A DNA stretch of 56,449 nt from Tieghemostelium lacteum (lineage: Eukaryota > Evosea > Eumycetozoa > Dictyosteliales > Raperosteliaceae), in the NCBI GenBank assembly GCA_001606155.1, contig LODT01000019.1, positions 1-56,449 on the forward strand, given 5' to 3'. This document shows positions 16,016 to 42,539 of this stretch, piece by piece. The translations under genes and the position numbers were made by a program. The notes beneath the pieces were generated by a model. It was not told where the DNA came from. It did no database searches and saw nothing but the letters and a program-made list of their open reading frames with translations. Positions within the stretch are counted from its first letter, which is position 1; each line of letters starts with the position of its first letter.

Positions 16016-16893
16016 ATGGATAATGCAGTTACCAATTTTATAAGATCTATGCCATTGGTGACTAGATTTCTTTTTGTTGGATGTGGACTTACTACACTAT
16101 TAGTTAATTTTGGACTCATACCATTTGCATCAATATACTTTTCACCATCATTAATATTTAAAAGCTTTGAAATATGGAGATTAGTTACACCTTTTCTCTT
16201 TATGGGTAAATTAGGTTTAGATTTTCTATTTCTCTTATACTTTTTGTATGTTTTATTAGTAGTTCCAAGATACATGATGAGATCAAGGGATACAAACAAT
16301 ATTAATAATAATATACATTATTGAATTATAGGTATAAATATTCAACAATGTTAGAAACAGGTACATTTATAAATAGACAAGCAGATTATTTTTATTTGGT
16401 ATTAGTAAATTCAATATTATTATTGGTTTTTGGATTAGTAATACCATCATTTATATTTATGACTAAAGGACTTATAATGTCAATAATGTATATATGGTCA
16501 AGATATTATCCAGAAATGGATGTTACCTTCTTTTTTGGTATGAAATTTAAATCAATATATCTACCATGGGTGTTTATGGGTTTCAATATTTTAATGGGTG
16601 GTCTACCAATAATGGAGTTTTGTGGTGTAATTTGTGGACATGTTTATTATTATATCTCTGAAATCTATCCAGAAGCTTATCGTAAACCAAATTATTTAGC
16701 AACTCCCTCTTTCATGTAAGTATTAATTTATAGTTAGATTTTTTTCATTATTAATTAATATTAAAAACTCTATAGCAAAGGTTTATTTAACCAACCTGAT
16801 CAAGTAGTTGCAGCTGGAGGTGTTAGAGGAGGAGCACAACCTCCTCAAAGAGCCCAAGGTCATCAATGGGGTGGTGGTAACAGATTAGGTTAA
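16016..16893 (+). CDS. derlin, ER-associated degradation channel protein
   Basis: Exons 16016-16245, 16332-16715 and 16776-16893 give 243 residues. The first splice, within a Leu codon, restores FLFLLYFLYKYSTMLETG, which matches the family sequence FLYRYCRMLEEG. Derlins are inactive rhomboids that move misfolded proteins from the ER to the cytosol. The N-terminus has the usual IRSMPLVTRFLFVG; WRLVTPFLF and F-F-G-M-K-F...LPWV follow. The C-terminus ends in HQWGGGNRLG, matching the SHP box that recruits the p97/CDC48 ATPase. Start chosen at MDNAVTNF, which aligns with the family N-terminus; the open frame upstream is not needed. Confidence 0.95.
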
Positions 16894-16894
16894 T

Positions 16895-16895
16895 A

Positions 16896-16955
<60 letters not shown>
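16895..16955. repeat. (AAT)n microsatellite in derlin 3' flank
   Basis: About 20 uninterrupted AAT units just after the derlin stop codon, outside coding sequence. Likely length-polymorphic. Confidence 0.9.
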
Positions 16956-38157: not shown

Positions 38158-41100
38158 ATGTTAAAATATACCTTAGTTTTATGTGTACTGATATTAATAT
38201 TAAATATAAAAAATATAGAATCAATTAATTCACAAGAATGTAAGTTTTTTTATAATTTCTTTCAAATTAAGTACTAACAACTAGGAATTAAATTTTGAAA
38301 GTGAATGCATTGACAAAATTAAATATTCAATATGGTTATGATTGGGATTTATCGGATCCTTGTATAAATACAAATTTAGGTGCATTTAAATGTGATGACA
38401 GCAATCAAACAATTACAGAATTAATATTAAATGAATCATTAAATCCTTCAGAATTACCATCTGATATATCTAGTTTTAAATCATTACAAACTTTGTATGT
38501 AAATTAAATACTTTATTAATGTATATATACTAATAGTTTTTATAAATAGTACGATAAATAAGGGTATTTTAATACCAAACAATATTAATACAATATTAAT
38601 ATTAAATGGATTCGATAGCAAATTTGTAATTAATGATTACAAAAATATTTTACCTGAAAATCTATTTTATGTAAATGCATTGCGATTGGAAATTACACAT
38701 AATAATCCTTTTCCATCTGGTTACAATATTCCAACCATTTCAAATAATATAACTTCTGTAGTTTCAATTTTGTATGTTATTCTTAATCATCTCCATTTTA
38801 TTTTAATATTAATATTTTAATTATAATAGAACTATATCAGTATTAAATACATTTCCAATTTCATTAGCAAAAATACTTGGAAAATTAACAGTATTGGAGT
38901 TTCATATATATGGAGAAGATTTTTTATTTACTGATTTTACAGCTTTGAATTTAAATACATTGTAAGTTGGTTAATGGTAATTATAGAATATTTTAAAGAT
39001 ATATTAATGAATATTTAATTATATATTATAGACATTATAGAAATAGAGTGCCAACAAATAGATTTAATCTAGAACAGATTAATAGAGATTTTGGATTTAC
39101 AACTAATTTGGTATTGTTTGTTAGTAGTACTTTATTAAATGTACCTGTGGATGGTGTATATGATCTTAGAAACCTTTCATCAAGTTCATTGATTTTGGGT
39201 ACATCTTCAATGGATTATAATAATATAACGTATCCTGGTATTAAAATAACTCCAGGTTCAATTAATACAGTTAGATTAGGTAGTTGGGATAGAGAGCAAA
39301 TGGGAATTTCACATATACTCTTAAAGAATTTAGATATATTTCAATTTAGAACATTTATACCAATGGATAATACATTTAATTCTGAAATGCCATCAGGTAA
39401 CTACAGTAAAGTTACTAGATTAACATTTGATAATAGTGCCATTTTAGGAATTCTACCAAATGATACATGTCTAATTAGAAATCCATCATTGTTATCGTTT
39501 ATTGGTAACTCAATATCAGATATACCAACTTGTTTTAGATGTAGATGGGATACTCTTTATGAACAATTCGCTGGAAATGAAGAATTAAATAGCCATGAAT
39601 ATATTCAAGATTGTCCTGAATTTAAAATTACAACCAATCTGTCTGAAGTTGTTTTGGTACCTACTAATGGAGGTTTTATTACCATTTCTGGTAATGATCT
39701 TGGTTGGGATATAGATTTAGAAGGTTACCAAATGGTTATACCAAATCATCAATTCCTTATTCCAATTTCACCCGGTACTGGTGTAAACAAAAGTCAATTT
39801 ATTAGATTCCATTATCCAACCTATAATACCACTCAATTCCAACCAGAATTAATATATTCCTATTATCCACCAGATGTCTCTACATTAATTTCAGCAAGTA
39901 ATATTACAACAACACTTTTAGGTCAGAATTTTGGTAATGATATTAGAGTTATAAATGTAACTATAAATGGTGAGAATGTAAATGTAATATCTGCCAATCA
40001 CACTGTTCTTCTAGTTGAATATCAATTAAAAAAGACAATTGATAATCTATTTAATGTTAAGGTTATTATAGATGGTCAATTAAAAGAAATTTTATTTAAT
40101 ACATTAACTGATTTACCCACACTATTAGTATATCCAAGACTTAATCCAAGTGGTGGTATTGGTGTATTTTATGGTCATCATTTGACTATTGATCAATCAT
40201 TAGTTAAACTATATATTAACAATCACCCATGTGAAATTAAATCAACTAATGAAACACATATTATATTTCTATATCCATCTGCTACTATTGGTTATACTGA
40301 TTTTAAATTAAATATTGCATCTTATACTATTCAAGGTGGTATCAGATATCTATATATCAATGAACTTGTAGATCCACTAGATAAATTTATATTTAATAAT
40401 ACTTGTGAAAATGGTTATTTTGGTACACAATGTAAGGATAAGGTTATTGATATCTCTAAACCAATAATATCACCAAAGAAACCTGATGTAGTTATAAAAG
40501 AAAATGTACCAAGGAATATAAGTGAAACACCAATTGAAGCATATATATCGCTGGTAGAATTAAGAGAACTTGATATTGACAAAGATGTTGTTAATAGCTA
40601 TTCTCTAAGTAAAAGTGACATTTGGAAATATAAACAAATCAATGATGGTACATTTGAATACCAAACAATTATATCTATAAATACAACTATAGTTGTTAGA
40701 TTACTATGGTTTGATAATTCAACATCAGTGAGTTTTGGTGATAGATTGATAAATATGAATTCAAATACTCTAAAATATCAAGTAGAGATTGACCAATACC
40801 CATTTGAATCCAAACTCAATTCATTACAATTAGTAATGTCTACCATGTTATCAGCATTAACTGAACCATCAACATGTTCTTCAAGAACCTATGGTGAATA
40901 TGATGAATATGAATATGCAATCATTCGTATAAATTCTGTAAAAATGTTGAGTAAATTCATTAGATATGGTATAGTAGATCAACAAGTTAGATTAATTTCC
41001 AATTCCATTTTGGATAAAGATTATAAAGCTGAATCTTATGCAGATGAAATTCAATCCTATGTTGGTATTAATATACCATATTACTATACCAATGTAAATT

Positions 41101-41312
41101 TAGATCCTGATTTTAGTTTACTAGTTGATTTAGATCCTTCTGATGACCCTGAAAAACAAATATGTGCCACTCACACACTTTCAAAAGCTCAAATTGCTGG
41201 TATTGTTATTGGTGTAGTACTAACAATAGTTTTAATATCATCTATTGTAATCTACACTCTATATATTAAAAGTCTCAAGTTTAGAATATTTTTATTAAAA
41301 TTTAAACCTTAA
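38158..41312 (+). CDS. ComC-like cell-surface protein (LRR, IPT/TIG, EGF, TM)
   Basis: Exons 38158-38239, 38302-38494, 38550-38771, 38830-38961 and 39032-41312 give 969 residues. Signal peptide, then an LRR-type N-terminal region (YGYDWDLSDPCIN, SDISSFKSLQTL). Middle part has IPT/TIG-like strands (ITTNLSEVVLVPTNGGFITI, then SNITTTLLGQNFGND). An EGF-like CENGYFGTQC lies near 668. The C-terminal ComC domain (WKYKQINDGTFEYQ, DQYPFESKLNSLQLVM, DPDFSLLVDLDPS) precedes one membrane helix (~927-950) and a short basic tail. ComC proteins are developmental adhesion or communication receptors in Dictyostelium. Four introns share phase in the LRR part. Confidence 0.85.
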
Positions 41313-41419
41313 TAATAACAAGTTGATTATTCATTAATAAATAACAAAGAAATATCCCATATTTTAAAAATAAAAAAAAAAATTAAACTATTTTTAATAA
41401 TAGATATATTGTTTAATAG

Positions 41420-41600
41420 ATTGGGTGGTGCACAGGAATTCTGTTACTTCGCAATAAATAACAAATTTATAATACTTTTGATTTGGGTTCAAAAACATTA
41501 AGATTAATAATGTGTATAAATTGATTTTCAGACGCACTCTGAAAGGTCGGAGCTCGACTCTGTTAATCAATCCTCACGGATACCACAACCACTACCTTTT
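41420..41600 (+). ncRNA. candidate Pol III-transcribed structured small RNA
   Basis: A patch of ~50% GC between A/T-rich flanks. 41424-41430 (GGTGGTG) pairs with 41590-41596 (CACTACC), one G-U, and the pairing is followed at once by T4. Inside: hairpin TTTTCAGA/TCTGAAAG (41525-41545), hairpin GTCG/CGAC (41546-41558), hairpin ATCC/GGAT (41570-41581). A box-A-like TGGTGCACAGG (41426-41436) and box-B-like GGTTCAAAAAC (41486-41496) lie 49 bases apart, as in type 2 Pol III genes. GTTACTTCGC (41443-41452) matches ten bases found after box A in vertebrate vault RNA. No open reading frame fits. Family not established. Confidence 0.45.
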
Positions 41601-41621: not shown

Positions 41622-42539
41622 TTATTTATTACCAAAACCAAGTAAGACCTTAGATTTAAGAGAAAATCCTTTTTCAGATTGATCCTTTGGATACATTGAA
41701 AAGAATACTCTAATAAGACCAGGAACAAATTGTGTTTGTTGTTCTACATTTAAATCTCTCATTACATTTAACATGATTGGATTTTTTTCAAACATTTTAA
41801 TAGTTTGTTCTAATGGGATATTTGGAAGTGGGATATCCTTTTCAATTGGTACTATACGTACATCTTTAAAACCAGCTTGAAGAAGTTCAGATTCAAATAA
41901 TACAGGATCTCTTAATGCACTAAATGGTATATACTTTTTATAATCTAAACCCATTTCAGTTAAAATTACCCTGAAACCAATATTCCAAAATGAATCTTCA
42001 GTCCAAGTAGATATCATTACTTGACCACCTGGTTTCAAAACTCTATGTATCTCTTTCATTCCTTGTACTCTATCAGAGAACAAATTTAATCCAAAAAATG
42101 ATAAACCATAATCAAATGTATTATCATCCAGTTTTAAATCCTATAATATTGTGATATTTCAATTAATACTGAAATCAATAAGCCAAATTCAGTTTTTAAA
42201 TATACATACCAAACCATCCATTACAGCTGTTTGAATATTATTTATATTTTGATTTTTAATATTTAAATCTAATTGCTCAATCATTTTTGATGAAAAATCA
42301 ATTGCAGTTATTGAACTTTCAGGATTAAATTGTGATATATATTTTGAAGCTGCAATAGCAACTGGACCAGTACCTGTTGCGACATCCAGTAATTTAATTG
42401 GAAGAGTTGGTTTTTCTTTACCAATAGTCATTTCCATTGCCATTATTGAATAAAATAAAGAGAATTTAGTTGATTCAACATAATTATTATAACTCTCTGC
42501 ATTTTCATCCCAATAGTTTTTATCCAAATAATATGACAT
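41622..42539 (-). CDS. class I SAM-dependent methyltransferase (UbiE/COQ5-like)
   Basis: Exons 42539-42210 and 42140-41622 (intron GTATGT-TATAG, phase 0) give 282 residues. SAM motif I is LLDVATGTGPVAIAAS (~50); AIDFSSKMIEQ, AVMDGLDLKLDDNTFDYGLS (splice junction inside) and RVLKPGGQVMISTW follow. The substrate is not apparent; similar proteins methylate small molecules or quinones. No targeting sequence is visible. It ends 20 bases from the T-run of the candidate small RNA. Confidence 0.85.

Follow-up and report, generated by a model that had tools for sequence, protein, structure and literature searches.

The window, a stretch of 56,449 nucleotides from Tieghemostelium lacteum, is one whole contig (C16) of a genome comprising 23.33 Mb in 43 contigs; the D. 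lacteum genome report gives 23.4 Mb, 54 contigs and normal chromosome telomeres (PMC4931340). The candidate sits in a gap of ~310 bases that separates two convergent genes, and the stop codon of the downstream, methyltransferase-like gene (41622) is ~22 bases from the 3' end of the candidate RNA. No long open frame crosses the candidate; the frames present are at most 60 codons from stop to stop, which ruled out a coding exon. The genes and features of the locus are as follows.

39210-41312, + strand: upstream gene encoding TIG and ComC domains; its end is 110 bases 5' of the predicted RNA start
41353-41361, + strand: DUSE-like element TATCCCATA, its CCA 66 bases before 41423
41423-41600, + strand: predicted RNA, about 174-178 nt long, with putative ends placed from the DUSE spacing and the closing helix
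41423-41430, + strand: 5' arm of the closing helix, pairing with 41590-41597 (probability 0.70-0.93)
41426-41436, + strand: weak box A-like element TGGTGCACAGG, 5.5 bits vs 9.0-16.7 for 11 tRNAs
41432-41444, + strand: small 5' hairpin, moderate (pair probability 0.53-0.61)
41443-41452, + strand: proposed ten-base vault RNA match GTTACTTCGC, occurring once in the contig
41478-41492, + strand: hairpin, moderate (pair probability about 0.5-0.75)
41486-41496, + strand: weak box B-like element GGTTCAAAAAC, 8.9 bits vs 9.6-21.0 for 11 tRNAs
41522-41569, + strand: main 3' hairpin of 48 nt with internal loops, the firmest element (pair probabilities mostly 0.8-0.99)
41570-41581, + strand: short hairpin preceding the 3' closing arm (pair probability 0.56-0.75)
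41590-41597, + strand: 3' arm of the closing helix, 8 bp with 41423-41430
41597-41600, + strand: T4 run that may act as a weak terminator; the next T5 is near 41670
41622-42539, - strand: convergent methyltransferase-like gene in two frames (41622-42059 and 42189-42539)

The strongest evidence for an RNA gene was the DUSE-like element TATCCCATA, which had not been noticed in the earlier, sequence-only reading of this DNA. Published dictyostelid work places the DUSE about 60-63 bases upstream of ncRNA genes (PMC7919456, PMC3188802), and the candidate CCA was located at -66, counted from the start that the closing helix predicts. In the same genome, we found DUSE-like elements at -66 in the SRP RNA gene (TATCCCACA), at -68 in the U6 gene (TTCCATAA) and at -58 in the U2a gene (ATCCCATAA). 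The U2b element was at -77, U2d had weak ones at -63 and -100, and that of RNase P was at -101 from the model start, where the true 5' end may be further upstream; no clear DUSE at such spacing was found for the U2c and MRP genes. Over both strands of the contig (112,898 positions), the strict form, [AT]TCCCA[CT]A, occurred three times with the candidate site included and the loose form 33 times, so that 0.0003 to 0.003 occurrences would be expected by chance in an 11-base slot. The candidate element has three Cs, as do the SRP and U2a elements here, and most DUSEs of the D. lacteum Class I genes have two Cs (PMC7919456). That paper also describes the DUSE as used by Pol II and Pol III genes alike, so the element does not tell which polymerase would transcribe the candidate.

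The sequence-only reading had described paired ends followed by T4, and this arrangement was recovered as an 8-bp helix, the last paired base of which is the first T of the run. It had also described three consecutive hairpins, and hairpins were found, the one at 41522-41569 being firm and those at 41432-41444, 41478-41492 and 41570-41581 moderate. The 41519-41585 region showed a fold z of -2.97, with 5 of 600 shuffles equally good, and the whole candidate showed z values of -3.10 (+ strand) and -3.12 (- strand), or -2.87 and -2.61, respectively, with 600 shuffles. When 626 windows of the contig were scanned with 40 shuffles each, the candidate z of -2.17 was equalled by 38 of them, and 16 of the 626 had z <= -3. 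Since the fold was near-equal on both strands and many contig windows were as good, folding fixes neither the place nor the strand of a gene; it is supportive only and modestly unusual. More telling than the fold was the GC content, which reached 0.47 across 41525-41599. Among 1901 windows of 75 bp outside long frames, 16 had a GC content of at least 0.44; four of these were the candidate block itself, and the other 12 lay at 16771-16900. This second block is GC-rich, folds well and lacks a long frame, and it was considered as a sister RNA and rejected once it proved to be the final coding exon of a gene of the Der1 family. The GC contrast claimed for the candidate was thus borne out, and its GC block is without equal in the non-coding DNA of the contig. 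The derlin-like exon (16777-16893) is itself short, GC-rich and well folded, and it could pass for an RNA gene.

The candidate was present as a single copy in the genome; searches with the whole RNA (E up to 0.001) and with its 3' part (E up to 10) returned the self-match alone. A single-sequence model revealed no paralogs or relatives in 15 sequence sources (101,499 bases), and its best non-self match was the candidate's own reverse strand (11.2 bits, E 0.33). No Rfam family was found in the window at gathering, and at E up to 10 the locus gave weak matches only. The best, to the plant-type snoRNA model RF00300, lay on the - strand, opposite to the candidate (18.6 bits vs a gathering score of 44, E 0.11-0.19); the + strand matched RF00336 with 16.5 bits vs gathering 50 (E 3.3). 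As a control, four of five known RNAs of the genome were recovered at gathering and SRP failed, so a diverged family member could escape the Rfam test. The SRP RNA is nevertheless clear (C21:836406-836697, DUSE at -66), scoring 63.7 bits, below the metazoan-model gathering value of 70, and it matched no Rfam family at gathering.

A covariance search of the locus with the SRP, RNase P and MRP models, which had been suggested together with the original call, gave no match. SRP, RNase P, MRP and U6 were rejected as identities since none matched the locus, their genes being situated on contigs C21, C30, C17 and C24, respectively, and U2 was rejected because its four genes lie elsewhere in the genome. 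Local alignment of the candidate to SRP, RNase P, MRP, U6 and one U2 was at best equalled by 65 of 500 shuffles. A tRNA was rejected as well, as neither the tRNA model nor ARAGORN gave a match. For Class I RNA, the 11-nt motif (CCTTACAGC...) is absent from 41423-41600, and the candidate measures about 175 nt vs about 60 nt, so this identity was also rejected. A pattern search for TCCCA, a gap and TTACAGC gave 44 matches vs 11 for the reversed control, and none was a clear Class I gene when judged by eye; the TCCCA pattern was perhaps ill-chosen, given the two-C element of most D. lacteum Class I genes.

Telomerase RNA was considered because of the candidate size and the closing helix and was rejected because there is no telomere-repeat template, the longest match in the candidate being 5 nt (CTACC). 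PMC6592521 states the existence of a telomerase RNA in D. discoideum as unknown. Among the contig termini examined, 7 of 40 starts and 4 of 20 ends carried TAGGG telomere repeats (43 contigs in the genome), and with a repeat of 5 nt a telomerase template would be searchable. Additionally, 8 of 40 contigs (the window at 1-600, C2, C4, C9, C12, C19, C20 and C29) had 20-36 copies of AACC(T/C)TCA repeats within their first 600 bases; five of the eight also carry or adjoin TAGGG arrays. These repeats look subtelomeric, and the window contig may therefore begin near a chromosome end.

The box A- and box B-like elements reported 49 bases apart were found at 41426-41436 (TGGTGCACAGG) and 41486-41496 (GGTTCAAAAAC). 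They were scored with profiles built from 11 tRNA genes of the same genome; of 13 distinct tRNA sequences, L123 (mis-cut near a contig end) was dropped from both box scoring and the T-run count, and L137, a near-copy of L117, was omitted from box scoring but counted for T runs. Of 1000 shuffles, 19 reached the score of the box pair, 83 that of box A alone and 85 that of box B alone; of 1126 contig windows, 15 reached the pair score. With respect to termination, the first downstream T run was at least T5 in 10 of 12 tRNAs and also in SRP and U6, and T4 occurs inside four of the 12 tRNAs and inside SRP without stopping their transcription. Two T4 runs are internal to the candidate RNA, and each strand has 12 T runs of at least four per kb. 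Transcription by Pol III from internal boxes, as proposed, was not established, as both boxes score below those of all 11 tRNAs and T4, a poor terminator, is also found internally. As a separate observation on the tRNA loci, a 25-base word, CTCTGAATTTTTGGTGTTTTGCTCC, was common to 8 of 30 (L109, L111, L117, L121, L125, L130, L134 and L135) and lies at most 60 bases from the tRNA 3' end in several of them; we take it to be probably the end of a tRNA-targeting retroelement of the TRE type.

The same reading had called the candidate vault-RNA-like. Its ten-base match, GTTACTTCGC, is present, and with one mismatch allowed it remains the sole match in the contig, where shuffles average 0.51; its resemblance to vertebrate vault RNA is as given in the sequence-only reading. 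The match was chosen after the fact; its presence and uniqueness held up, and the vault reading drawn from it was not supported. At E up to 10, the vault model RF00006 matched nothing at the locus and gave 0 matches genome-wide (49 of 1207 candidates scored), although this model may not reach amoebae. In vertebrate vault RNAs, box B is near the 3' end, whereas the box B-like element here is about 100 nt from the candidate 3' end. Frames with MVP (vault) repeats were found on three contigs (C35, C14 and C29), and C30:454966-455996 encodes a protein with TROVE, DUF4062 and DUF5920 domains, which we take to be TEP1-like by its domain order. These genes make an RNA partner plausible, and a vault RNA may exist in this genome. 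The earlier remark that the candidate is longer than known vault RNAs was correct: its predicted length is 174-178 nt vs the 88-140 nt given in PMC7904556, and PMC550661 lists 86-99 for human and 141 for rat. No described Dictyostelium vault RNA was found in the searched portion of the literature, which is mostly open-access (PMC13100048, PMC12547018, PMC7904556, PMC550661). Taken with the weak boxes, the late choice of the 10-mer and the excess length, the silence of the vault model at the locus and in the genome leaves the vault reading weak.

On balance, we consider it probable that the locus is a single-copy, DUSE-driven non-coding RNA gene of about 175 nt without a known family. The DNA directly gives a promoter-like element at a known spacing, a predicted fold, a single copy and no known family. 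The reading follows from the DUSE spacing, the non-coding GC block, the closed ends with the firm 3' hairpin and a convergent-gene gap with no long frame; it is weakened by a fold that is equal on the two strands, by the short and degenerate nature of the DUSE, which some RNA genes lack at this spacing, by its three Cs in place of the two usual in D. lacteum Class I genes, and by the weak T4. The original call of a structured RNA gene thus survives mainly through the DUSE-like element at known-gene spacing, its Pol III part not being established and its vault part not supported. The chief competitor, which we regard as unlikely but of some weight, is that the locus holds no gene and is either a spacer that is GC-rich and foldable by accident or the overlapping 3' untranslated tails of the two convergent genes, with the DUSE match due to chance. 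The ~310 bases between convergent genes must accommodate the mRNA tails, folding is alike on both strands and matched by many contig windows, and T runs of four or more are common, all of which would fit such a spacer; it would leave as coincidences the position of the DUSE-like element, the unusual GC block and the agreement between the promoter-predicted start and the start of the closing helix.

Two readings that assign the RNA a class fared worse. It is improbable that the RNA is a snoRNA, or a guide RNA of another kind, that has diverged beyond the reach of Rfam: both model matches that hint at it, RF00300 and RF00336, are far under gathering, the better one lies on the strand opposite the promoter, and by eye the 5' end has no C box nearby and no ACA lies three bases short of the 3' end. 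Many D. discoideum ncRNA genes have a DUSE (PMC7919456), which would accommodate this reading. It is about as improbable that the candidate is the amoeba's vault RNA, which the TEP1-like protein would bind within vaults; the MVP-repeat and TEP1-like genes, paired ends, weak boxes and 10-mer favour it, and the absence of an RF00006 match at E up to 10, the remote box B-like element and a length beyond the 88-140 nt range given in PMC7904556 speak against it. We likewise give little credence to its being an enlarged amoebozoan vault RNA in which an external DUSE promoter replaced strong internal boxes.

For the preferred reading, a DUSE-driven RNA of no known family, we infer the transcription, polymerase, exact ends and ribonucleoprotein function. 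Transcription would proceed rightwards from a DUSE-type promoter, and the product, about 175 nt long, would be clamped at its termini by the 8-bp helix; it would have a small hairpin on the 5' side, a loose middle rich in AT and a strong hairpin on the 3' side. Such an RNA may serve as the scaffold of a small ribonucleoprotein, in which the closing helix and the 3' hairpin would bind protein and confer stability, with the AT-rich middle as a variable or contact part. RNA sequencing of D. lacteum at the growing, mound and finger stages is described in PMC7919456. If expressed, this orphan structured RNA would join the short list of dictyostelid ncRNAs, and it would show that RNA genes overlooked by Rfam can be found from promoter spacing. 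How abundant it is and what it binds would be measurable in an easily grown amoeba. If it were found in vaults, the RNA of a group used as a model for vaults would become testable, and a dictyostelid vault RNA partner would be identified.

Compared with vault RNA (RF00006), the candidate shares paired ends, a T run, weak boxes and the ten-base match, in a genome with MVP-repeat and TEP1-like genes; it differs in having no model match, greater length, boxes that are weak, and promoter evidence that is external rather than internal. With Class I RNA, it shares a stem joining the 5' and 3' ends and a DUSE about 60 bases upstream. However, the D. discoideum Class I RNAs covered in PMC7919456 are 42-65 nt long with the 11-nt motif beside the 5' stem, and they start with AAG and end with CUGU; none of these traits is found in the candidate. 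Compared with the dictyostelid DUSE-driven ncRNA genes as a whole (spliceosomal, SRP and Class I), the candidate differs in matching no Rfam sequence or model, in exceeding Class I in length and in lacking the Class I motif, but it shares their element type, their spacing and their short, structured, stand-alone form.
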